Virus record (IMG/VR): IMGVR_UViG_3300027965_000014
Span: 1 to 29,675 of that record
Strand: one strand, 5' to 3'
Source: a virus
Length of the DNA: 29,675 nt
Position 1 is the first letter of the stretch; the number at the start of each line of letters is the position of its first letter. Positions 2,660 through 17,679 of the stretch are shown here, piece after piece. Below the pieces are notes generated by a model. It was not told where the DNA came from. It saw only the letters and a program-made list of their open reading frames with translations, and ran no database searches. Position numbers and translations under genes: made by a program.

Positions 2660-3046
2660 CTACCTATGCGGGTCAGCTCCGTTGTCGTCGAGCGGCGGCT
2701 TGCGCGACCGCGTCGCGCGCTTGCGCTTCGGTTTCGACTTGGGCTCGACGGCGCCTATAGTCTTCGATGCCTTCACGTTGCCTTGCTGGATCAGCTGGCG
2801 CACCTTCGGCTTGAGCGAGTCGAGCGTTCCGCCATAGAGCCAGTTGAAGTCAACGCCGTGCTCGGCGACAACGACGGCGGCGGTGTCGGCATCCAGCGCA
2901 CGCCGCCCTGTCTCGTAGTTGTACCAGCGTTGCGGCGTGAGCTTGACGCTGCGCGCCATCTCCGATGCGTTGCCATACAGTCGCTCTCGCAACAGCAGCA
3001 GACGCCCAGCAATCTCCTTCTGTCGCTTCTTCCCTTTAGATGCCAA
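2660..3046 (-). CDS. XRE-family phage repressor (CI-like), TTG start
   Basis: A 128-residue DNA-binding protein. A helix-turn-helix domain covers about residues 12-72 (ASEMARSVKLTPQRWYNYET is the core), followed by a linker and a very basic Lys/Arg-rich tail (residues about 95-118). There is no LexA/CI-type S24 peptidase domain, so cleavage on SOS induction is not expected from this protein itself. The start is TTG at 3046, with GGAGGT five bases upstream. No ATG lies nearby before the HTH. Two tandem operator-like dyads sit 50-90 bases upstream and two more lie beyond its 3' end. Its position opposite a Cro-like gene makes it the likely lysogeny repressor and the likely binder of the dispersed dyads. 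The last point is inference. Confidence 0.85.
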   Translation of the reverse strand: MASKGKKRQKEIAGRLLLLRERLYGNASEMARSVKLTPQRWYNYETGRRALDADTAAVVVAEHGVDFNWLYGGTLDSLKPKVRQLIQQGNVKASKTIGAVEPKSKPKRKRATRSRKPPLDDNGADPHR

Positions 3047-3095: not shown

Positions 3096-3114
3096 CATAG
3101 ACACCCTGTTTAAG
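3096..3114. promoter_or_regulatory. Operator-like dyad 3
   Basis: CATAGACACCCTGTTTAAG, with 7-5-7 layout, lies upstream of the repressor start. It is placed 20 bp from the next dyad, so the two would lie on nearly the same face of the helix, as paired phage operators do. Confidence 0.6.
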
Positions 3115-3115
3115 A

Positions 3116-3134
3116 GTGTAACGGATTGTTTAAG
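3116..3134. promoter_or_regulatory. Operator-like dyad 4
   Basis: GTGTAACGGATTGTTTAAG, with 7-5-7 layout, lies next to dyad 3 in the 253-bp divergent region between the repressor (leftward) and the Cro-like gene (rightward). Its GTTTAAG arm is identical to that of dyad 3 and of the site at 2612-2630. This divergent region otherwise shows no gene. Confidence 0.65.
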
Positions 3135-3270: not shown

Positions 3271-3289
3271 TTTAGACAGATTGGCGAAA
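3271..3289. promoter_or_regulatory. Operator-like dyad 5
   Basis: TTTAGACAGATTGGCGAAA. Its first 13 bases are identical to the site at 2571-2589. It ends 10 bases before the ATG of the Cro-like gene, so a bound protein would block the early rightward transcript or cover the translation start region. Confidence 0.7.
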
Positions 3290-3299
3290 GTCCGCGCCC

Positions 3300-3650
3300 A
3301 TGCGGGACCTCAAAGTCATCACCGATCTGTGTGACGCGCTGGGCGGCCTGTCGGCGACGGCACGGGAGTTGTCGATCCCCGACCGGCCACTGACGCCGCA
3401 GCACATCTATAACTGGAGAAAGCGCGGCAGGGTTGCGCCAGAGCAGCGGCTCAACTTCCTCACTGTGTTTAACCGGGTGATGCCCAAGCGTAAGCACCTC
3501 GATCTGACGTGGCTTGCCAGTCCCGCTGCCAACAGCAACGGGAGTGCATCGCATGGCGGAAAGAGCAGGCGGAAAGCGCCAGCGCGCAAAGCGCGGCGGC
3601 GGTCGGCGCGGCAAGCGCGGCAACGGGGCGACGCCCGGCCCCGGCCATAA
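3300..3650 (+). CDS. Cro-like helix-turn-helix protein, first rightward gene
   Basis: A 116-residue protein. Residues about 4-60 form a YdaS/Cro-like HTH (ALGGLSATARELSIPDRPLT, then QHIYNWRKRGRVAPEQRL). A segment ending TWLASPAAN follows, then a strongly Arg/Lys-rich tail. Divergent orientation to the repressor and a dyad just ahead of its start fit a Cro or CII-type switch protein. Its last 98 bases overlap the next gene in another frame. The basic tail is the overlapping part, so it may be a by-product of that overlap. The ribosome site is weak (GAAAG). Confidence 0.75.
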   Translation: MRDLKVITDLCDALGGLSATARELSIPDRPLTPQHIYNWRKRGRVAPEQRLNFLTVFNRVMPKRKHLDLTWLASPAANSNGSASHGGKSRRKAPARKARRRSARQARQRGDARPRP

Positions 3651-5440: not shown

Positions 5441-5977
5441 ATGGCGAATGCCCGCAAGCGCAGGGCACGCAAGGCACGGCGTGCCGTCAACCGAGGCGAC
5501 CGCGTGAAGGCGACACCCGAGACGCTCGCCAAGCTGCGGCCGCATCCCCTCGAGGTGCTGCTCGCCCGTGGTCGAGAGGACGGCGGCATCGACGCCGATC
5601 AGCTGCAGTGCGCCGAGGAGATCGTCGACGCCTTCGCCGCCATCACGCGTGGCCTTGGCATCAAGGGCGCGATGCTGGAGCGGATCGGCGGCGCTGGGCA
5701 CGACGAGCTGAGCCCGCGTGAGGAGCGCCTGTCGGTGATCTGGTTCGCATGGGCGGCCGAGCTGCCGCGACGCCTGCTGCCGCGCCCGGTGGTCGTCGTC
5801 GAGCTGATCGCCGCCGTGCGCCCCGCCAAGTCGGACGACATTCGACGGCTCGGTCGTGCCCTCGATCTGTGGGCGAAGGTGCGCCAAGACAGCGCGCGGC
5901 CTGTGCGCGAGGTTTCAACAATTCGTCCAAATCTGCTTGACAGCTACCAGACGCGTTTGACAGTCTCCGGTCGCTGA
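5441..5977 (+). CDS. Conserved phage protein of unknown function, 178 aa
   Basis: A 178-residue protein with a basic N-terminal arm (RKRRARKARRAVNRGDR). A segment HPLEVLLARG and IDADQLQCAEEI follows, then helices. An AAGGAGGT ribosome site gives a firm start. It lies last in the early rightward genes and just before the HNH gene, where phages often keep a late regulator. The architecture would allow an antiterminator-like role but no motif shows it. An operator-like dyad (5913-5931) lies inside its last 65 bases. Confidence 0.8.
   Translation: MANARKRRARKARRAVNRGDRVKATPETLAKLRPHPLEVLLARGREDGGIDADQLQCAEEIVDAFAAITRGLGIKGAMLERIGGAGHDELSPREERLSVIWFAWAAELPRRLLPRPVVVVELIAAVRPAKSDDIRRLGRALDLWAKVRQDSARPVREVSTIRPNLLDSYQTRLTVSGR
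5913..5931. promoter_or_regulatory. Operator-like dyad 6, within a coding end
   Basis: TTTCAACAATTCGTCCAAA, with 7-5-7 layout. It is inside the 3' end of the preceding gene and 62 bases ahead of the HNH gene. Two TTGACA hexamers follow at 5937-5942 and 5957-5962, but no good -10 is seen at the right distance from either. Confidence 0.6.
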
Positions 5978-5993: not shown

Positions 5994-6857
5994 ATGCCGA
6001 CACGACCCGCCCTCCATCAACCTCACTTCGCCAAGACCGCCGAGCAGCGAGCCCTGGCCGAGCGCGAGCGCATGCGAGAGCGCGACGCGCAACGGCCCAG
6101 CAGCAGCGAGCGCGGCTATGATCGCGAGTGGCGCGAGCTGCGCGCCTCCTTCATCCTCGACCACCCGACGTGCTGTGTGCGGGGCTGCGGTCGACCGACG
6201 GTCGACGTTGACCACGTCGAGGACATCCGCGCCCATCCCCACCGTCGCCTCGACCGGACGAACCTGCGCCCGTTCTGTCACGCGCACCATGCGCAGCGTA
6301 CCGCTCGTGAGCAGGGCTTCGCTCGACCGCGTGAGCTGCGCGACGGTGCTCGCGTCTCGACACGGGGCGCCCTCTACCCTGATTGGCTGCGCCCCTCGCG
6401 CGTGCCGCTCCAGCTCGTGTGCGGCCCTCCTGCAGCAGGCAAGTCCCAATTCGTCAACGAGCGCGCTTCGTTCACCGAGCTGGTTCTCGACCTCGACGAG
6501 ATCAAAGCCGCGCTGTCCGGCCTGCCGATCTACCAGCCCGGCCTGGCATGGCGAGGGGAGGCCCTGCGCCACCGCAACGCCTCGCTGGGCCGCCTGTCCG
6601 GTCATCATCCGAATGTCTCCGGGGCTTGGCTCATCGTCGGCGAGCCCACGCCGCAATGGCGTCAGTGGTGGCGCGAGCGGCTGCGGCCTCTCGTGGTGTG
6701 GGTCATGCCGACCCCCGCTGATGTCTGCCACGCCCGCATCGATGCCGACCCTCGCCGCGAGTTGGTCCGCGATCTGCACCACGTTGCAGTCGACGACTGG
6801 TGGAGACGCTACGAGCCGATGAAGGGCGACCGCGTGGTCAATGCTCAGGGGGGATGA
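5994..6857 (+). CDS. HNH endonuclease fused to a P-loop ATPase/kinase-like domain
   Basis: A 287-residue two-domain protein. Residues about 40-105 form an HNH zinc-finger nuclease: C60/C65, the DVDHVEDI core with D73-H74, N90 and C95-H96. Residues about 138-285 form a P-loop domain with Walker A GPPAAGKS (144-151) and LVLDLDEI downstream, as in small nucleotide- or polynucleotide-kinase-like ATPases. HNH proteins next to the terminase assist packaging-site cleavage in HK97-like phages. What the kinase-like half adds is unknown. The ATG at 5994 has GAGGTG upstream. An in-frame GTG at 5979 is an alternative start. Confidence 0.85.
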   Translation: MPTRPALHQPHFAKTAEQRALAERERMRERDAQRPSSSERGYDREWRELRASFILDHPTCCVRGCGRPTVDVDHVEDIRAHPHRRLDRTNLRPFCHAHHAQRTAREQGFARPRELRDGARVSTRGALYPDWLRPSRVPLQLVCGPPAAGKSQFVNERASFTELVLDLDEIKAALSGLPIYQPGLAWRGEALRHRNASLGRLSGHHPNVSGAWLIVGEPTPQWRQWWRERLRPLVVWVMPTPADVCHARIDADPRRELVRDLHHVAVDDWWRRYEPMKGDRVVNAQGG

Positions 6858-7285: not shown

Positions 7286-7885
7286 ATGGCCACAAGGACG
7301 GCAACCAAGAGCGACGAGCTCCAGTTGGACATGACGGCGCTTAACGTCGAGCAGCGCGACCCGCGCCAGCTCAAGCCGCACCCCAAGAATTCGCGCTTCC
7401 ACCCCGAAGTACAGCTCAAGCAACTGGCAGCGTCCTTGCGCCGGTTCGGCATCACCAAGCCGATCCTGATCGATGACGACGACACGATCCTTGCGGGGCA
7501 CGCGACGACGCTCGCCGCCATCGAGTGCCGACTGCACACCGTGCCGGTGGTCGTGGCGCACGGCTGGACCGACCAGCAGAAGCGGGCCTACCTGATCGCA
7601 GACAACCGGCTCGGCGAGAAGTCGACATGGGACAGCACGCTGCTGGCGCTGGAGATCGGCGCTCTCAAGCCCATCGGCGACGATCTCGCGGCGATGGGCT
7701 TCACTGACAAGGATGTCGCCGCAGCCCTGCGGCGGGCAGGCCCCGACAAGCACGGCAGCGAGCAGCAGCTCGGCGACGGGCTCGCTTATCGGGTGATCGT
7801 CGACTGCCGCGACGAGTCGCACCAGACCGAGCTGATTGAGCGCTTCGATGGTGAGGGCCTGAAATGCCGCGCGTTGATCTCGTAG
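7286..7885 (+). CDS. ParB-like nuclease-fold domain protein
   Basis: A 199-residue protein with a ParB/Srx-fold domain at about residues 25-110: LKPHPKNSRFH, then GITKPILIDDDDTILAGHATTLAAIE, then KRAYLIADNRLGE. The usual GHxR element reads GHATT, so the Arg is missing. A small C-terminal domain (YRVIVDCRDESHQTELIERF, then CRAL) is typical of phage ParB proteins. In many prophages this ParB type is fused to a DNA methyltransferase before the terminase; here that place is taken by an ABC-GNAT fusion. It is likely a DNA-binding or DNA-modification accessory. GGAG lies before the ATG, and the gene overlaps the next by 22 bases. Confidence 0.8.
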   Translation: MATRTATKSDELQLDMTALNVEQRDPRQLKPHPKNSRFHPEVQLKQLAASLRRFGITKPILIDDDDTILAGHATTLAAIECRLHTVPVVVAHGWTDQQKRAYLIADNRLGEKSTWDSTLLALEIGALKPIGDDLAAMGFTDKDVAAALRRAGPDKHGSEQQLGDGLAYRVIVDCRDESHQTELIERFDGEGLKCRALIS

Positions 7886-8964
7886 TCCGCAGTCCCATCG
7901 CGCACACGCCGCGCGCCCGCCAGCTGGAGGCGCTGTTTGACGTGCCCGCCATCGAGCAGAGCGAGCGCGAATGGCACGGCGAGGTGCCCATCGACGCGCG
8001 CGACTGGAACGTCGGGCTGATCGTGGGGCCATCGGGCAGCGGTAAGTCGACGATCCTCCGCGATCTGTTCGGAGAGCCAGCGACGTTGACGTGGGGCGGC
8101 GCGTCGGTGATCGAGGATTTCGACCGCGCCCTGTCGATGAAAGAGATCTCCGATATGTGTCAGGCGGTCGGCTTCAACACCATTCCGGCGTGGCTGCGCC
8201 CCTACAGCGTGCTGAGCAACGGCGAGCGCTTCCGCGTCGAGCTGGCCCGCCGTATGCTGGAGACGACCGGCGTCGTCGCGGTCGACGAATTCACGTCGGT
8301 GGTCGACCGCCAGGTTGCGAAGATCGGCGCGCATGCCGTCCAGAAGAGCATCCGGCGCACGGGCAAGCGATTCGTTGCAGCGTCGTGCCACTACGACATC
8401 CTCGATTGGCTGCAGCCCGATTGGACACTGGAGCCCGCCTCGATGTCGTTCACATGGAGGGAGCTTCGGCGACGACCGGACATCACGGTCGAGCTTCGCC
8501 ATGTCGAGTATCGCGCGTGGGAGCTTTTCGCGCCGTTTCACTATCTGACTGCCGAGCTGAACCACGCCGCGCGCTGCTGGTGCCTGTTCGTCGACAGGCA
8601 GCCGGTGAGCTTCGCCGCCGTGCTGCATCGGCCGACCAATCGCCCAACACGCATCAAGGGCGTGTCGCGGCTCGTGACGCTGCCCGACTGGCAGGGGCTG
8701 GGGCTCGCGCTGATCCTCGTCGACCATCTTGGCGCGCTCTACGCCGCGCAGGGCTTCGAGCTGCGGACCTATCCCGCGCACCCGGCGCTGATCCGTTCCT
8801 TCGACCGATCGCCCCGCTGGAAGCTGGAGAAGAAGCCCGGCCGGTTCTCCTCGAGGCCGGGCGAGACGGGCAACGCGCCTATGGGCGGGCGTCCGTGCGC
8901 GGTTTTCTCGTACTGCGGCGAGGCGGGCGATTCGGCCGAGGCGCGCGCGGCGCTCGCCGACTAA
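7864..8964 (+). CDS. ABC-type ATPase fused to GNAT acyltransferase domain (Mom-like?)
   Basis: A 366-residue fusion. The N-terminal half is an ABC ATPase without membrane segments: Walker A GPSGSGKST (55-63), signature LSNGERFRVELAR (117-129), Walker B VVAVDEF (137-143) and H-loop SCH (174-176). The C-terminal half (about 205-350) is GNAT-like, with SRLVTLPDWQGLGLALILVD (268-287) matching the acetyl-CoA-binding motif. An HPALIRSFDRSPRWKL stretch (306-321) follows. COG2401-type proteins have this make-up, and the phage Mu Mom adenine-modifying enzyme is a GNAT. Together with ParB this suggests DNA base modification, which is inference. It is not a transporter, because there is no permease. Confidence 0.8.
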   Translation: MPRVDLVVRSPIAHTPRARQLEALFDVPAIEQSEREWHGEVPIDARDWNVGLIVGPSGSGKSTILRDLFGEPATLTWGGASVIEDFDRALSMKEISDMCQAVGFNTIPAWLRPYSVLSNGERFRVELARRMLETTGVVAVDEFTSVVDRQVAKIGAHAVQKSIRRTGKRFVAASCHYDILDWLQPDWTLEPASMSFTWRELRRRPDITVELRHVEYRAWELFAPFHYLTAELNHAARCWCLFVDRQPVSFAAVLHRPTNRPTRIKGVSRLVTLPDWQGLGLALILVDHLGALYAAQGFELRTYPAHPALIRSFDRSPRWKLEKKPGRFSSRPGETGNAPMGGRPCAVFSYCGEAGDSAEARAALAD

Positions 8965-10710: not shown

Positions 10711-12358
10711 CGAGACGACCGCCTATGCCCGCGCCGTCATCGCAGGCGAGATAATCGCCTGCCGCTATGTCAGGCTGGCCTGCAAGCGGCACCTGTCGGA
10801 TCTGAAATTCGGCCGCCGACGCGGACTCTGGTTCGATGCCGCCGCCGCGCAGCATCGCATCGGGTTCTATCCAGCGTTCCTGCGCCACTCCAAAGGCGAG
10901 TGGGCGCGTCGCCCGGTCGAGCTGTCGTCGTGGCAGAAATTCGTGATCGGCTCGGTGTTTGGCTGGAAGCGCAAGGACGGCACGCGCCGCTTCCGCTATG
11001 TCTACGAGGAGCTGCCACGAAAAAACGGCAAGAGCACCAAGCTGGCCGGCGTCGGCCTGGACATGCTGGCGTGTGACGGTGAGCCCGGCGCCGAAATCTA
11101 CGCCGCCGCGACCAAGCGCGATCAGGCGCGGATCATCTTCGATGAGGCCAAGCGCATGGTCGGCAGCTCGCCCGATCTCGCGGCGACGATTGCCCGATAC
11201 AAGCTCAACCTCAGCATCGACGCCACCGCCTCGAAATTCGAGCCGCTGTCGTCCGACGACCGGACGCTCGACGGGCTCAATCCGCACTGCGTACTCGTCG
11301 ACGAGCTGCACCGGCACAAGACGCGCGCGCTGCTCGACGTGCTCGACACCGCGCTGGGCGCTCGCCGCCAGCCGCTGCTATGGATCATCACCACCGCGGG
11401 CGACGACGACCCGGAGAGCGTCTACACGGCGGAGAACGACTACGCGATCAAGGTGCTGGAGGGCGCCGTCGAGGATGACAGCGTGTTCGCGTTCATCACC
11501 ACCATCGACAAGGGCGACCGCTGGGACGATCCGCAGGCGTGGGCGAAGGCGAACCCCAACCTCGGGATCTCGGTCAAGCTTGACGATTTGGAGCGCCAGG
11601 CCCGCAAGGCGGCCAAGAGCGCGGGCGCACTGGTCGCCTTCAAGCGGCTACGGCTCAACGTGCGCAGCTCGGCGATGGATCGCGTCATCGACATGGCGCA
11701 ATGGGCGCGCAACTCGCGGGGCCGCTTCGACCCCGACAAGCTCGACCAGCGCCGCTGCTTCGCCGGGCTCGACCTGTCGAGCAAGATCGACATCAGCGCC
11801 TTCGTGCGCCTCTACGAGCCCGACGAGAGCGGCATCATGCGGATCGCCTGCCGCTTCTGGATGCCCGCCGACACCGTCGAAGAACGCGCCGACCGTGACC
11901 GCATGCCGTACCGGCGATGGGTGGAGGAAGGATGGATCGAGGCGACCCCCGGCAACGTCATCGACCATGCCGAGATCAAGGCGGCGATCATCGCCGACGC
12001 CAAGCGGTACGACATCGAGTCGCTCGCCTTCGATCCATGGAATGCAACGCAGCTCGCCGTCGAGCTAAACGAGGCAGGCGTCGAGGCGGTTGAATTCATC
12101 CAGGGCATGCGCAGTTACACCGCGCCGACCAAGGAACTGCAGGCCCTGATCGCCGACCGCAAGCTCGATCACGGCGACAACCCCGTGCTCACCGTGATGG
12201 CGTCCAATCTCAAGGTGCAGCGCGACAAGAACCTCAACGAGATGCCGAACAAGGCGCACAGCACCGGCCGCATCGACGGGATCACCGCGCTGATCATGGC
12301 GCTGGGTCGCCGCATGACCGTGACGCAGCGCGGCGAACCCAGCGTGTTCTTCGTCTAG
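10631..12358 (+). CDS. terL: Terminase large subunit (ATPase-nuclease)
   Basis: A 575-residue protein of the HK97/phi-C31-like large terminase family. The ATPase has a deviant Walker A PRKNGKS (129-135), Walker B VLVDE (221-225) and a coupling segment IITTAG (252-257). The nuclease has LDLSS with D381, and FDPWNATQLA. It powers DNA translocation into the prohead and cuts the concatemer. The first 27 residues are Ser/Arg/Thr-rich and overlap the small subunit in another frame. Family similarity begins near AYARAVIAGEII. A TTG at 10622 is also possible. It shares its stop with the opposite-strand gene in the tetranucleotide CTAG. Confidence 0.92.
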   Translation: MPQRSASRATTRASRPTSTASPTSSTDETTAYARAVIAGEIIACRYVRLACKRHLSDLKFGRRRGLWFDAAAAQHRIGFYPAFLRHSKGEWARRPVELSSWQKFVIGSVFGWKRKDGTRRFRYVYEELPRKNGKSTKLAGVGLDMLACDGEPGAEIYAAATKRDQARIIFDEAKRMVGSSPDLAATIARYKLNLSIDATASKFEPLSSDDRTLDGLNPHCVLVDELHRHKTRALLDVLDTALGARRQPLLWIITTAGDDDPESVYTAENDYAIKVLEGAVEDDSVFAFITTIDKGDRWDDPQAWAKANPNLGISVKLDDLERQARKAAKSAGALVAFKRLRLNVRSSAMDRVIDMAQWARNSRGRFDPDKLDQRRCFAGLDLSSKIDISAFVRLYEPDESGIMRIACRFWMPADTVEERADRDRMPYRRWVEEGWIEATPGNVIDHAEIKAAIIADAKRYDIESLAFDPWNATQLAVELNEAGVEAVEFIQGMRSYTAPTKELQALIADRKLDHGDNPVLTVMASNLKVQRDKNLNEMPNKAHSTGRIDGITALIMALGRRMTVTQRGEPSVFFV

Positions 12359-12786
12359 TGCAGCCAGTCCTCAAAAACCTCGACGCCCGGCCACCACAGC
12401 GTCAGGCGTCCGCGCAGCTCGGTGCGTACCCTCCATACGCCGAGATCGCGATTGAGGGCGCGATACAGCTTCGGCCGCCGCTGCAGCGCCCGGAAGATGT
12501 CGACGGTGCGCTGTCGCAGCTTGATCGCGTTGTTGCACGCCACGCCGAGAAACAGGCGTCGCTCGACCGGCACGACGACGAGTGTCAGGTCGAGCTGCGT
12601 GAGAAGGCGCGCGAACGGCTGGTGCCGGTCCGCAACGAAATAGAATGAGCGATCATCCGCCCCTGCCGGGTGGATGCGCTCTCTCGTGGCGGCTCTGATC
12701 GTCGCCTCCGCCTCATAGTCGTCGTCGATCTGGTAGTGCCCGCACTCGTGAACCTCGGACCATCTAAACAACGCCCGCTCCGTCAT
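12355..12786 (-). CDS. Leftward gene of unknown function inside late region, 143 aa
   Basis: A 143-residue protein beginning MTERALFRWSEVHECGHYQI. A GGAGGAG ribosome site seven bases before the ATG supports it strongly. The sequence alternates charged and beta-like segments (LDLTLVVVPVERRLFLG) and ends with a Trp-rich part (GVEVFEDWLH). It is transcribed opposite to packaging and head genes and converges with terL, the two stops overlapping in CTAG. Two operator-like dyads lie about 150 bases upstream. The layout is that of an independently expressed accessory gene. I do not recognise a family. Confidence 0.7.
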   Translation of the reverse strand: MTERALFRWSEVHECGHYQIDDDYEAEATIRAATRERIHPAGADDRSFYFVADRHQPFARLLTQLDLTLVVVPVERRLFLGVACNNAIKLRQRTVDIFRALQRRPKLYRALNRDLGVWRVRTELRGRLTLWWPGVEVFEDWLH

Positions 12787-12936
12787 GTTCGGCTCCTCCG
12801 GGTTTTTTGTTCTGGCCCGCTGCGGCTGGCGGGTCGACTTGGGCGGGTTGCGCTCCCGCACGTCGCGACGAGGGGGAAGCTGTGCTCGTCGCGTGGTTCA
12901 AGATCGTACAGATGCCGCGGCTTCACACGCAACCGT

Positions 12937-12955
12937 CTTAAACAGATTGTTCTCA
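12937..12955. promoter_or_regulatory. Operator-like dyad 7
   Basis: CTTAAACAGATTGTTCTCA has 7-5-7 layout, with a good left arm and a weak right arm. It sits between the divergent genes starting at 12786 (leftward) and 12995 (rightward). The rest of this 208-bp gap shows no gene. Confidence 0.5.
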
Positions 12956-12969
12956 ACAGATCGTGTAAA
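12951..12969. promoter_or_regulatory. Operator-like dyad 8
   Basis: TCTCAACAGATCGTGTAAA, with 7-5-7 layout, overlaps dyad 7 by five bases. It ends 25 bases before the start of the small basic gene at 12995. Confidence 0.55.
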
Positions 12970-12994
12970 GCGTGCGCCCAGAAAGGTCACAGCC

Positions 12995-13168
12995 ATGACA
13001 ACGATCAAGAGCAAGCGCCCAAGAGCTGGACTCGGGCTTGGCTCGGCGATCACGCCTGATCGACTCGTCTCGCGCAGCGCGCACGCAGCCACCACGCGGA
13101 AGCCGAAGCAGGTACGGTCGAGCAAACCGGCGCGACCGGTGCGAGAGACTCGCAAGCCGCCGCGCTAG
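12995..13168 (+). CDS. Small basic protein, 57 aa
   Basis: A 57-residue protein rich in Arg, Lys, Ser and Pro (MTTIKSKRPRAGLGLGSAIT, then a tail of RKPK/RETRKPPR type). It is probably unstructured and able to bind nucleic acid. AGAAAGG lies eight bases before the ATG. Its stop overlaps that of the convergent leftward gene in CTAG. It is a rightward insert between terminase and protease with its own pair of dyads. Function is unknown. Confidence 0.55.
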   Translation: MTTIKSKRPRAGLGLGSAITPDRLVSRSAHAATTRKPKQVRSSKPARPVRETRKPPR

Positions 13169-13458
13169 AGCGGCGTTCCCCACAAACCAGACCAGTACAG
13201 CAGGCATCGCTCGCCGGGCTCGATGTCCCACGCGCGACTAACGGGCGCCATGTCAATACCGGCATCTCCTGCGGCGTGGCCGATGCGAAACGCAGCGCGC
13301 TGCCGCGCGCGATCATCATCGAAGCTCAGCACGAGATAGCGGCGATCCGGCGGCTCGTCGACCACCGAGCCACTCACGACGCGCAGCTCGTACCAGAGCC
13401 GCTTTAGCAGCTCGAGGAACGGCCAGACCTCGCGCCGAACGACGATGCCCGCACCCAT
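13165..13458 (-). CDS. Leftward gene of unknown function, 97 aa
   Basis: A 97-residue protein, probably alpha/beta, with a conserved look: EVWPFLELLKRLWYELRVVS, then RRYLVLSFDDDRARQRAAF, and a C-terminus WDIEPGERCLLYWSG. It starts only 33 bases from the oppositely oriented prohead protease gene, with one operator-like dyad in between. No ribosome site is evident because the dyad occupies the leader. It converges with the small basic gene through an overlapping CTAG stop. No family is recognised. Confidence 0.65.
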   Translation of the reverse strand: MGAGIVVRREVWPFLELLKRLWYELRVVSGSVVDEPPDRRYLVLSFDDDRARQRAAFRIGHAAGDAGIDMAPVSRAWDIEPGERCLLYWSGLWGTPL

Positions 13459-13462
13459 CGGA

Positions 13463-13481
13463 TTTCAACAAATCGTCTAAA
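13463..13481. promoter_or_regulatory. Operator-like dyad 9
   Basis: TTTCAACAAATCGTCTAAA, one of the best matches to the consensus. It fills most of the 33-bp gap between two divergent start codons and directly abuts the GGGGGAG ribosome site of the protease gene. There is no room for two ordinary promoters here. Confidence 0.7.
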
Positions 13482-13491
13482 GGGGGAGACC

Positions 13492-14136
13492 ATGCCCTCA
13501 AACCGCACCGCGCCGCAAGTGGGCGTGGCGATCTCGCGCGCCGTCACCATCGAGAAGGCCGCGAGCGACGGCCTGCGCCGCGTGCGCTTCGTCGCGTCAG
13601 ACGAAACTGTGGATCGCTATGGGGACATCATCCGCGCCAGCGGCTGGCAGCTCGACAACTTCCGCAAAAACCCCGTGCTGCTGTTCGGCCATCAGTCGGG
13701 CCAGCTGCCGGTCGGCAAGGTCGACCCGATCGCCGTCGAAGGCACGCGCCTGATCGCGCACGCCGAATTCACGCCCGAGGGCATGTCGAGCTTCGCCGAC
13801 ACGGTGTGGGCGATGGTCGATCAGGGGTTCGTCCAGGCCGCATCGGTCGGCTTCCTGCCGCTCGCCGCGCCCAACCCGATCTTCGATGCCGACAAGCATC
13901 TCACTGGCTTTGAATTCATCGCTCAAGAGCTGCTGGAGCTGAGCGTCGTCACGGTTCCCGCGAACCCGAACGCGCTGCAGCTCGCCAAGAGCTTCGCCTT
14001 GTCAGGCGAGGAAATGCGCTGCCTGTTCGACGACGGGGCTGCCGCCCGCGTCGCAGCCGCAGCGCGCACCCGCACCATCACTCTTTCCCGCCTCGGCAGG
14101 CATCAGGCGGCCCCCACCCCCGAACGGGGAGCTTAG
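13492..14136 (+). CDS. HK97-family prohead protease
   Basis: A 214-residue serine protease of the U35 type. The N-terminal RRVRFVASDETVDRYGDII leads into NPVLLFGHQSGQLPVG with the likely catalytic H67. The likely catalytic S117 lies in QAASVGFLP, and ELLELSVVTVPANPNAL is the usual family ending. It cleaves the scaffold-like delta domain of the major capsid protein during head maturation. The C-terminal 45 residues are low-complexity and may be a self-cleaved tail. GGGGGAG before the ATG sets the start. The major capsid gene follows two bases on. Confidence 0.9.
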   Translation: MPSNRTAPQVGVAISRAVTIEKAASDGLRRVRFVASDETVDRYGDIIRASGWQLDNFRKNPVLLFGHQSGQLPVGKVDPIAVEGTRLIAHAEFTPEGMSSFADTVWAMVDQGFVQAASVGFLPLAAPNPIFDADKHLTGFEFIAQELLELSVVTVPANPNALQLAKSFALSGEEMRCLFDDGAAARVAAAARTRTITLSRLGRHQAAPTPERGA

Positions 14137-14138
14137 TC

Positions 14139-15539
14139 ATGTCTATTCGCAAGCAGATCGAGGCGCTCCAGAAGAAGCGGAACGCCCACCTCGACGCTAT
14201 GCAGGCGTTGAGCGATACGGCGGCCAACAACAACCGCCTGTTCAGCGAGGACGAGCAGAAGGCCTTCGACAAGGATCAGGGCGAGGTGCGCGACATCGAT
14301 GCGCAGCTTGACCGTCTGAACGAAGCCGAGAAGCAACTCGCCGGTCGGGCGCAGCCCGCGCCGACCCCGACGCCACAGCCGACGCCCCACCTCGAGGTCA
14401 AGCCCTACAAGGGGTTCAAGGGGCAGGGCTTCGTCCGGCTCGCGCTCGCGGTCGGTCGCACCAAGGGCAACTTCCAGATGGCGGCCGAGTACGCCGCGCG
14501 CTGGAAGGATCAGACGCCGGAAGTGTACGAGGTGCTCGCGCAGATCGCGCGCTCGGGGCAGCTTCCCGGCGAGGTCTACCGCGCCGCCGTCGCGGCCGGA
14601 ACGACCACCGATGCGCAGTGGGCTGGCCCGCTGGTGTACGCGCAGAACCTCGCCAGCGAGTTCATCGAGTTCCTGCGTCCGGCGACCATCATCGGCAAGC
14701 TGCCGCTGCGCCCTGTGCCCTTCAACGTGTCGATCCCGCGGCAGACGGGTGCCGCGTCGGTCGGCTGGGTCGGTCAGGGCATGTCGAAGCCTGCCGGCCA
14801 TCTGGCGTTCGATCGACTGCCCATCCCCTGGGCCAAGGTCGCGGTGATCGTCGTCATCACCGACGAGCTGGCGCGCTTCTCCGACCCGAGCGCCGAGCAG
14901 CTCGTGCGCGACGATCTGGTGGCGTCCATCGCGACGTACCTCGACGGGCAGTTCACCGATCCCGCGGTGGCGGCGGTCGCGAACGTCAACCCGGCGTCGA
15001 TCACCAACGGCGTTGCGCCCATCGTGGCCGCGACCGGCGGCGTTGCCGACATCAACACCGCGTTGACGCAGGCGATCCAGCAGCTCATCGCAGCCAACAT
15101 GCCGTTCACCAGCGTCTACTGGCTGCTGAACGCCGGCACCCGCGTGGCGCTCCAGAACCAGCGCATCCCGACCTATCTCAACTACGCGTTCCCGGAGATG
15201 GCCGCTGGCAATCTCAAGGGCTACCCGTGGGTCGAGAGCAACACGATCCCGCTCGGCACGGCGATCCTGGTCGACTGCTCGCAAATCCTGCACGCCGCCG
15301 ATCCGGTGGTAGACATCGAGGCGAGCAACGAGGCGTCGCTGCAGATGGACAGCGCCCCAGCGACCCCGCCGGCGCCGCTGATCTCGCTGTGGCAGCAGAA
15401 CATGCTCGGCATCAAGGCGGAGCAGTATCAGTATTGGGCCAAGCGGCATAACGGCTGCGTCTCCGTGGTCACTGGTGTCGTGCCGACCTCGATCGCCGAC
15501 GAAGGCGCGCCCACGTCGGGCAGCGGTCGCCATCGCTGA
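14139..15539 (+). CDS. Major capsid protein, HK97 fold
   Basis: A 466-residue protein. The N-terminal ~80 residues form a charged coiled coil (IRKQIEALQKKRNAHLDAM, then DEQKAFDKDQGEVRDIDAQL) that acts as the delta domain. A Pro/Thr-rich linker follows, then the HK97-type shell domain from about residue 100, with typical segments RPATIIGKLPLRPVPFNVSI and WVGQGMSKPAGHLAFDR. The ending TSIADEGAPTSGSGRHR is flexible. It forms the icosahedral shell. Its place directly after the protease is standard, but the portal comes afterwards rather than before. Confidence 0.92.
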   Translation: MSIRKQIEALQKKRNAHLDAMQALSDTAANNNRLFSEDEQKAFDKDQGEVRDIDAQLDRLNEAEKQLAGRAQPAPTPTPQPTPHLEVKPYKGFKGQGFVRLALAVGRTKGNFQMAAEYAARWKDQTPEVYEVLAQIARSGQLPGEVYRAAVAAGTTTDAQWAGPLVYAQNLASEFIEFLRPATIIGKLPLRPVPFNVSIPRQTGAASVGWVGQGMSKPAGHLAFDRLPIPWAKVAVIVVITDELARFSDPSAEQLVRDDLVASIATYLDGQFTDPAVAAVANVNPASITNGVAPIVAATGGVADINTALTQAIQQLIAANMPFTSVYWLLNAGTRVALQNQRIPTYLNYAFPEMAAGNLKGYPWVESNTIPLGTAILVDCSQILHAADPVVDIEASNEASLQMDSAPATPPAPLISLWQQNMLGIKAEQYQYWAKRHNGCVSVVTGVVPTSIADEGAPTSGSGRHR

Positions 15540-15596
15540 GCATCGCATGAGGAGGGGGGCGGACGAGCGCTCCACGCTTCGTCCGTCCACCTAAGC

Positions 15597-15614
15597 CGGG
15601 GCCATCGTGCCCCG
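15597..15614 (+). terminator. Possible weak terminator after capsid gene
   Basis: CGGGGC, a 6-base loop and GCCCCG form a short GC stem 57 bases after the capsid stop, followed by a moderately T-rich stretch (ATGTTCTTTCTC). There is no clean T-run. It may reduce read-through towards the opposing gene. Confidence 0.35.
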
Positions 15615-15629
15615 ATGTTCTTTCTCGCC

Positions 15630-15655
15630 AAAAAAGACCCCGCCGAAGCGGGGTC
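15630..15655 (-). terminator. Rho-independent terminator for the leftward basic gene
   Basis: On the minus strand GACCCCGC, a TTCG tetraloop and GCGGGGTC form a perfect 8-bp stem, followed by six T. It lies 25-50 bases past the stop of the leftward Lys/Ala-rich gene and is a textbook intrinsic terminator. In the rightward direction there is no T-run. Confidence 0.85.
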
Positions 15656-15679
15656 CAAAGTTCGTCGTTATCGAGCTGA

Positions 15680-16105
15680 TCAGCTCTTGATGCGAAAGAC
15701 GACGCCGCCGCGCTCTCCGTCGTGCTCCTTCGTCACGCTGTGTAGCTTGCGGACCTTGTCGCGGATCGCCGCGCGCACCTCGCGCGCCGTCTTGAAGCCC
15801 TTGATCGCCTTGGCGGCCTCCTCGTTGGTCGCGCCGTTCTTCGTCTTGAGCAGCGCGATCAGCTCGACGACATGCGGGGCGAGTGGCTTCGCCGGGCGCG
15901 TGTCGGGCACGGGCTTCTTCGTCGCCTCCGGCTTCGTCGCTGTCGCTGCAGCTGCTGCGGGCTTCTTCGTCTCGGTCGCCTTCGGCGCGGTGGCCTTGGG
16001 CTTGGCGGCCTTGGGCTGCGCCTTCGGCTTCGCGGTCTTGCTCTTAGCAGCGGCGTTGGGCTTGGCGCTCTTCGCGGCGGCGGTCGTGTTCGTCGTGGCA
16101 GTCAT
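15680..16105 (-). CDS. Lys/Ala-rich protein with DUF3489-like winged-helix end
   Basis: A 141-residue protein. The first ~80 residues are repeats of K, A, P and T (histone H1-like). Residues about 78-138 form a small folded domain (HVVELIALLKTKNGATNEEA, then KAIKGFKTAREVRAAIRDKV, ending GVVFRI). That domain resembles the rhizobial DUF3489 winged helix. It probably binds DNA. It is transcribed leftward between the capsid and portal genes, with its own AGAGGA ribosome site, an upstream operator-like dyad (16130-16148) and its own terminator, so it is a self-contained unit. It may act in lysogeny or on DNA condensation, which is inference. Confidence 0.8.
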   Translation of the reverse strand: MTATTNTTAAAKSAKPNAAAKSKTAKPKAQPKAAKPKATAPKATETKKPAAAAATATKPEATKKPVPDTRPAKPLAPHVVELIALLKTKNGATNEEAAKAIKGFKTAREVRAAIRDKVRKLHSVTKEHDGERGGVVFRIKS

Positions 16106-16129
16106 TGATCTAGTCCTCTGTCATCTTCG

Positions 16130-16148
16130 TTTAGACGAAATGTCCAAA
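16130..16148. promoter_or_regulatory. Operator-like dyad 10
   Basis: TTTAGACGAAATGTCCAAA is the most symmetric copy: TTTAGAC against GTCCAAA, one mismatch from perfect arms. It lies 24 bases upstream of the leftward basic gene and 110 bases before the portal gene. The rest of this 152-bp gap shows no gene. Confidence 0.7.
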
Positions 16149-16257
16149 CTCAAGACATCCTAGCGGGACGGCCCGACCTGTCGGCGTCGGCGAGCCGCGG
16201 ATTGTCGCAGGCAAAAAGCCAAGCCGGTCAACACTTCCACGTCGGGGAGCGCGCGCC

Positions 16258-17679
16258 ATGACTGATCAGCTCGCTGTCCCGGCGTCGCCGTCGATCCTGT
16301 CGCGTCTCGGCGCTGCTGGGCGCGCGGCGTGGCGCTCGCTGGTCAATGCGGGTGGCGGAGGCGTGAATTGGTACTGGCCGCCGATGGGCTTCGGTGATCG
16401 CGGCCCGCCCGGCTCGTGGCAGATGAACCTCAACGCGGGCATGGGCTCGCCCGAGCTGATCGCCTTCTCGGCGGTCTACGCCTGCACGTCGATCATCAGC
16501 GGCGACATCGGCAAGCTGCCGGTGCAGGTGTTCCACGTCGACATGAAAAGCGGGGCGCGCGAGCTGCAGCGCCGCGACTACTACGCGCAGCTGATGCGCG
16601 AGCCCAACGAGTACCAGACCGCCGCCGACTTCATGCAGCTCTACGTGCTGAGCGCGCTCCTGCAGGGCAACGGCTACGCCTTCGTGCGCCGCAACGCCCG
16701 CGCCGAGATCAACGAGATGCACGTCCTTGATCCGCGCACTACGCGGCCCTACATCGAGCCCGAGAGCGGCGCGGTGTTCTACCGCTGCGGCGAGAACCTG
16801 CTCGCGGGGCTTCGCCCAGGTGCGATGGTGCCCGAGCGCGACATCATCCATCACCGCCTGCCGCTACTGCCGGCCTATCCGCTGATCGGCGTTACCCCGA
16901 TCTTCGCCGCCGCCGCGTCGAGCGCGGTCGGGCTCCACATCCTGCGCAACTCGCAGAGCTTCTTCGGCAACAGCTCGAGGCCATCGGGCGTACTGACCGC
17001 GCCAGGCAAGATCAGCAAGGACACCGCCGACCGACTCAAGGAGGATTGGGACAACAACTACACCGGCCAACGGTACGGCAAGACGGCGGTGCTGCCCGAA
17101 GGGCTGCAGTGGTCGCCGCTGACGATAACCGCGCAGGACGCGCAGCTCATCGAGCAGCTGCGCTGGAGCGTCGAGGATGTCTCGCGCGTGTTTCGCGTGC
17201 CACCGTTCATGCTGGGCGACACCAGCAAGACCACGTACCGCAACAGCGAGCAGCTGGCGCGGGCCTATCTGTCGGGTTGCCTGTCGACCCATCTCACGGC
17301 GCTGGAGCAGCGCTTCGCCCGCGCCTTTGAATTCCCGGTCGATTACGAGCTGAAATTCGACCTGTCGGCGCTGCTGCGCGCCGAGATCGATGTCCGCTAC
17401 ACGGCGTACCAGACGGCGCTCAGCTCGGCGTGGCAGACGATCAACGAGGTCCGCGCACAAGAGGGCCTCGGCCCGGTCGACGGTGGCGACGAGCCGCACA
17501 TCCAGATGCAGTACGTGCCGCTCAGCCAGAGCGGCCAGACGCCCGCCGCGCCCGCGCCAACGCCGCCATCAGAGCCGCCAGCGCCCGCGCCAGGCGACGA
17601 GCCCAACCCCACGCAGGACGAATTCGACGCGGCGGTGCTGCGCCAGCTCGTGCGCCAACGCCTACGGAGGGCCGCATGA
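16258..17679 (+). CDS. Portal protein, HK97 family
   Basis: A 473-residue portal. Typical segments are AFSAVYACTSIISGDIGKLP (about 71-90), YVLSALLQGNGYAF, and NSQSFFGNSSRPSGVLTAPG. Then come QLRWSVEDVSRVFRVPPFML with YRNSEQLARAYL, and a C-terminal Pro/Ala-rich tail. It forms the dodecameric ring at the unique vertex and is the DNA channel and terminase dock. It is placed after the capsid gene instead of between terminase and protease. The next gene starts within its stop (ATGA). No strong ribosome site precedes the ATG. Confidence 0.92.
   Translation: MTDQLAVPASPSILSRLGAAGRAAWRSLVNAGGGGVNWYWPPMGFGDRGPPGSWQMNLNAGMGSPELIAFSAVYACTSIISGDIGKLPVQVFHVDMKSGARELQRRDYYAQLMREPNEYQTAADFMQLYVLSALLQGNGYAFVRRNARAEINEMHVLDPRTTRPYIEPESGAVFYRCGENLLAGLRPGAMVPERDIIHHRLPLLPAYPLIGVTPIFAAAASSAVGLHILRNSQSFFGNSSRPSGVLTAPGKISKDTADRLKEDWDNNYTGQRYGKTAVLPEGLQWSPLTITAQDAQLIEQLRWSVEDVSRVFRVPPFMLGDTSKTTYRNSEQLARAYLSGCLSTHLTALEQRFARAFEFPVDYELKFDLSALLRAEIDVRYTAYQTALSSAWQTINEVRAQEGLGPVDGGDEPHIQMQYVPLSQSGQTPAAPAPTPPSEPPAPAPGDEPNPTQDEFDAAVLRQLVRQRLRRAA

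Follow-up and report, generated by a model that had tools for sequence, protein, structure and literature searches.

Gap upstream of the prohead protease gene

The window (the whole 29,675-nucleotide stretch of viral DNA analyzed here) encodes a 214-aa prohead protease (Peptidase S78) on the plus strand at positions 13492 to 14136, with a match to Pfam PF04586 above the cut-off and to the PHROG head maturation protease. Immediately to its left is a 97-aa open reading frame (ORF) on the minus strand (13165 to 13458), preceded by p57 on the plus strand (12995 to 13168), which encodes a small basic protein. By tblastn, p57 has matches in L022 and in three sister phages, X (contig IMGVR_UViG_3300033475_000181), L003 and L036, whose proteases are 90, 82 and 79% identical, respectively, to that of the window. 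The starts of the 97-aa ORF (13458) and the protease gene (13492) leave a gap of exactly 33 bp (13459 to 13491), and within it, 10 nt upstream of the protease ATG, sits a 19-bp dyad, TTTCAACAAATCGTCTAAA (13463 to 13481), designated site E. It shares its final two bases with the start of AAGGGGGAG (13480 to 13488, plus strand), a purine-rich stretch that, from its sequence, is probably the protease ribosome site. The outer arms of site E, TTTNRAC and GTYNAAA, flank a 5-bp center, so that the dyad departs from TTTNGAC-N5-GTCNAAA at one position and fits TTTNRAC-N5-GTYNAAA fully. An initial sequence-only reading had described a near-consensus 19-bp dyad in a 33-bp gap, touching the protease ribosome site, and each of these details is borne out. 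The real unit is this 19-bp dyad and not the inner palindrome GATTT-N4-AAATC, which was discarded as a family motif when its other matches proved few and near chance.

Whether the 97-aa ORF is a true gene is less certain. Its GC content by codon position (0.73/0.49/0.77) is coding-like. No ribosome site was found upstream of its start, and no homologue was recovered from Pfam, PHROGs, the related loci compared or an IMG/VR scan. Candidate paralogy to a 143-aa leftward gene, or to leftward ORFs of a more distant phage, L032, was unsupported (profile comparison probabilities of 0.3% and 6%, respectively).

A dispersed family of operator-like sites

No other position in the window fits the operator family TTTNRAC-N5-GTYNAAA as well as site E, whose match is far beyond chance. 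About nine copies are spread over 13.6 kb: upstream of a leftward early operon, the repressor gene and cro; at the 3' end of an early gene; and at three positions in the head module. A dyad scan identified strong further copies at 2571, 3271, 5913 and 16130 and a pair at 12937/12951, to which a symmetric weight matrix added weaker copies at 2612 and 3096. The matrix, trained on 18 sites from four phages with all E sites excluded, split the nine window sites (scores of 13 to 30) from the remainder (9.8 or lower). Site E scored 30.25, ranking first of 29,657 window positions, and again ranked first when the matrix was trained on other phages alone. Across 154,265 positions of control DNA from ten related phage loci the top score was 12.05, and a simulation of 5 million AT-rich positions produced no score as high as 30.25.

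Two of the sites, A (TTTAGACAGATTGACCAAA, 2571 to 2589) and A2 (TTTGGTCGATTCGTTTAAG, 2612 to 2630; matrix score 20.2, left out of training), precede the leftward early operon. The leftward repressor gene has a weaker site upstream of it (3096 to 3114; matrix score 13.2), with a still weaker, overlapping-type copy nearby (3116 to 3134), and site B (TTTAGACAGATTGGCGAAA, 3271 to 3289) is 10 nt upstream of the cro-like gene. Site C (TTTCAACAATTCGTCCAAA, 5913 to 5931) falls within the 3' end of a coding sequence (5441 to 5977). In the head module, sites D1 (12937 to 12955) and D2 (12951 to 12969) overlap each other upstream of p57, and site F (TTTAGACGAAATGTCCAAA, 16130 to 16148) lies upstream of a leftward 141-aa gene (15680 to 16105, minus strand) that it may control. 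Sites A, B and C are conserved in X, site F is conserved in all three sisters, and the D pair is likewise placed upstream of p57 in all four phages. By the working gene list, eight of the nine sites are wholly noncoding, compared to 7% of placements (binomial P of ~4e-9). The nine sites therefore have the character of dispersed operators, with many copies outside the immunity region, mostly intergenic, and the same sites at the repressor and cro operators (3096 and 3271; partly kept in X).

Site C imposes seven consecutive A/T-ending codons on its gene, more than in any other run of this kind in 14 main genes (the next longest being four), and this run is evidence of noncoding constraint. Lying inside a coding end, site C is in a transcription path. 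To its right, at 5936 to 5962, are two copies of TTGACAG about 20 bp apart that X retains, although the bases between them differ; the copies could be promoter -35 elements or the direct repeats of an activator.

Candidate repressor

The sites encircle an immunity-like region in which leftward rep (2660 to 3046, minus strand) and a YdaS/Cro-like gene (3300 to 3650, plus strand) diverge. Rep is a 128-aa helix-turn-helix (HTH) protein and a probable repressor (PHROG transcriptional repressor, 1e-8; Pfam HTH_19 below the cut-off), and the 116-aa Cro-like protein matches a PHROG DNA-binding protein and, weakly, Pfam YdaS. The leftward genes behind A/A2 include one that is exonuclease-like. X was the sole relative found with homologues of both rep and cro: its Rep is 62% identical, with a nearly identical HTH region carrying one R-to-A change, its Cro is 67% identical, and the same sites occur at the same places. 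L003 and L036 are fragments that do not cover their repressor genes. Since the sites surround rep and cro, and X carries both genes along with the same sites, Rep probably binds the operator family, which Cro may read as well. Rep had no match among 50,697 phage records, and its predicted structure (mean pLDDT of 50) was too poor for use. From the rep/cro pair we infer a lysogenic lifestyle; no integrase was found among the ORFs scanned in this 29.7-kb virus record, which may be incomplete, and a terminase scan of bacterial genomes returned distant matches only.

Conservation of site E in sister phages

Orthologous E sites are found 8 to 10 nt upstream of the protease ATG in X (CTTCAACAATCTGACGAAG), L003 (CCTCAACAATCTGACCAAC) and L036 (CTTCAACAATCTGACGACA). 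They are weaker than site E here (matrix scores of 13 to 18, against 30) but still above every control. All three sisters lack the 97-aa ORF: p57 is followed after ~40 nt by the protease gene in the same direction, with E between them. The leftward ORF is therefore best read as an insertion specific to the phage of the window, and the retention of E without it indicates that E is part of the protease junction or leader. The divergent start codons that the sequence-only reading had noted around the dyad are peculiar to this phage and are not the essential feature. D2 and E are 512 bp apart here, against 252, 212 and 255 bp in the three sister phages.

A collection-wide scan for an A/B-type site yielded 115 stretches; judged by the regulatory genes tested, X alone of the loci returned was clearly related. 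A similar scan for a sister-type E site with a ribosome site recovered only X, L036, L003 and three contigs without homologous genes. In the more distant L032, leftward ORFs occur between the terminase and protease genes, and a perfect 23-bp dyad, TTTGGCAACCAATACTTGCCAAA, lies upstream of the protease gene (L032 positions 6530 to 6552) as a single copy in the 46-kb contig.

Operator, promoter or RNA element

The sequence-only reading had noted that two ordinary promoters would not fit in the gap and had proposed direct repressor control of the head genes, by a roadblock or by a block on ribosome access. Consistent with this, a consensus scan of positions 12300 to 16400, which may miss promoters of a high-GC host, found no sigma-70-like promoter. 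Nor does any conserved -10-like element adjoin E in the three sisters, where the sequence to its left is unconserved. A conserved leftward -10-like hexamer does adjoin site F, so that F looks like a promoter operator and E does not. That E stays with the protease start in phages without the leftward gene fits direct control of the head genes, and it fits a transcriptional roadblock. The earlier proposal thus stands in part: the dyad belongs to the phage's own operator family, while a block on ribosome access by bound repressor is unsupported. A repressor bound to DNA leaves the mRNA unmasked, and the transcript folds no better than its shuffles.

An alternative hypothesis is that the 97-aa ORF is a small cargo gene silenced or switched by the repressor, and that E is an ordinary operator at the start region of its leftward promoter. 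The strongest E accompanies the leftward ORF, which it might seem to serve, and in L032, whose protease gene is also preceded by leftward ORFs, the gap holds a dyad that is perfect but different; together these make leftward-promoter control a serious rival. Site F, with its -10-like hexamer, likewise precedes a leftward gene. In contrast, X, L003 and L036 all carry E without the ORF, and no leftward promoter-like sequence, ribosome site or homologue was found for the ORF itself; we consider this explanation unlikely. It is also unlikely that E covers an unrecognized rightward promoter of the protease-capsid genes, at which initiation would be repressed. Site B, a probable promoter operator, is separated from the cro start codon by the same 10 nt that separate E from the protease ATG, so a cryptic promoter at E is conceivable, and the sigma-70 consensus may not be that of the host. 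However, sigma-70-like hexamers were not found, and the sequence to the left of E, which in the sisters is the end of p57, is unconserved among the four phages.

Two further explanations are less likely still. The whole family might be read by another protein, either the Cro-like protein alone or a ParB-like protein (7286 to 7885) for which the copies would serve in partition or packaging. X has kept both the Cro-like gene and the sites, and the ParB-like gene is present in the window, but sites at the rep and cro genes indicate immunity control, the ParB-like protein has only a weak ParB_N match with no DNA-binding domain detected, and many relatives with the ParB-like gene have no sites. Partition sites for ParB were rejected on the latter two counts, and a different reader of either kind is highly improbable. 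Least credible of all is that the dyad works in RNA as a hairpin shielding the protease ribosome site. A 5-bp hairpin, GAUUU-CAAC-AAAUC, can be drawn immediately upstream of the ribosome site, yet folding was no better than that of shuffled sequence (z of +1.33 and -0.36), the bases of the hairpin differ from those kept in the sisters, and members of the family also sit where no ribosome site is near.

Proposed block on head-gene transcription

We put at close to an even chance the hypothesis that E is a dispersed operator of the 128-aa HTH repressor, serving to block head-gene transcription internally, in the manner of a stoperator. In a lysogen, Rep would shut the early promoters at A/A2 and B, and would also occupy further sites along the path of lytic transcription: C within an early gene, and D, E and F ahead of p57, the protease gene and the 141-aa gene, respectively. 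A Rep dimer on E would then most likely stop or slow RNA polymerase in the protease-capsid leader, whether it had come from an upstream promoter at D or by read-through. It is the lack of a recognizable promoter at E, together with the unconserved sequence to its left, that favors a bound dimer acting as a block. Contact between E and the D pair, about 210 to 510 bp apart, could aid it. Such a block may be most effective against weak stray transcription in the lysogen and give way to strong lytic transcription. With weak to moderate promoters, roadblocking by LacI can be as much as 25-fold, while strong promoters partly overcome the block (PMC4132739); a similar dependence here would suit both silence in the lysogen and release during lytic growth. 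The clearly weaker E sites of the sisters, the company that the strong E keeps with the leftward ORF, and the spacing that it shares with site B all count against the block.

Relation to known repressor systems

Dispersed repressor sites are already known in P1, SPbeta and L5. In Cluster A mycobacteriophages (L5, Trixie, TipsytheTRex), stoperators occur throughout the genome, many of them in short gaps at a distance from promoters, and are proposed to stop elongation (PMC6550527, PMC9283540). The sites described here are likewise scattered. At E no sigma-70-like promoter was found, though the host consensus may differ, and C lies in a coding end. In contrast to the 20 to 30 copies of a 13-bp asymmetric site in Cluster A, oriented with transcription and recognized by a monomeric protein that has two DNA-binding domains, the window holds about nine near-palindromic 19-mers and a short one-HTH protein. 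Being palindromic, the present set is not a stoperator set in the strict sense. Phage P1 has a single repressor, C1, with 22 operators dispersed over its genome (PMC8546580); there the operators are asymmetric (17 bp), the repressor is unrelated, and P1 is a plasmid prophage. The Bacillus prophage SPbeta also has a repeated intergenic element, SPBRE, bound by the master repressor MrpR at about ten places (PMC10516654), but its 15-bp motif lies in promoter regions and its repressor has a recombinase fold. Intergenic 22-bp repeats in the T1-like phages Stevie and TLS have been compared to stoperators by their authors (PMC4319613, PMC11447400), although these are asymmetric, occur in lytic phages and have no assigned binder or role.

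What is unusual in the present set is its conserved placement in a head-gene leader and the additional site in a coding end. This placement suggests that repressor control reaches virion-assembly genes directly, in addition to the early genes that are its usual targets. Phages of the lambda type hold off their late genes indirectly. If the set works as read, a short repressor would guard early and head genes simultaneously. It is possible, though on balance doubtful, that this is a temperate phage with an HK97-like head whose repressor roadblocks virion genes at palindromic leader sites, including that of the head protease, and inside coding sequence, as an independently arisen, symmetric-site counterpart of stoperators. 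The weak E sites of the sisters and the strong E here offer a natural series for relating operator strength and gene insertion to any roadblock control.

Neighboring genes

The 141-aa protein encoded next to site F, between the capsid and portal genes, has an N-terminal part that is histone-like and rich in Ala, Lys and Pro, and it shares its C-terminal part with X, L003, L036 and L032. A strong terminator-like hairpin with a T run, oriented leftward, marks the end of its gene (15635 to 15656). Adjoining the ParB-like gene, positions 7864 to 8964 encode a 366-aa protein that joins an ABC-ATPase-like N-terminal part to an acetyltransferase-like C-terminal part.
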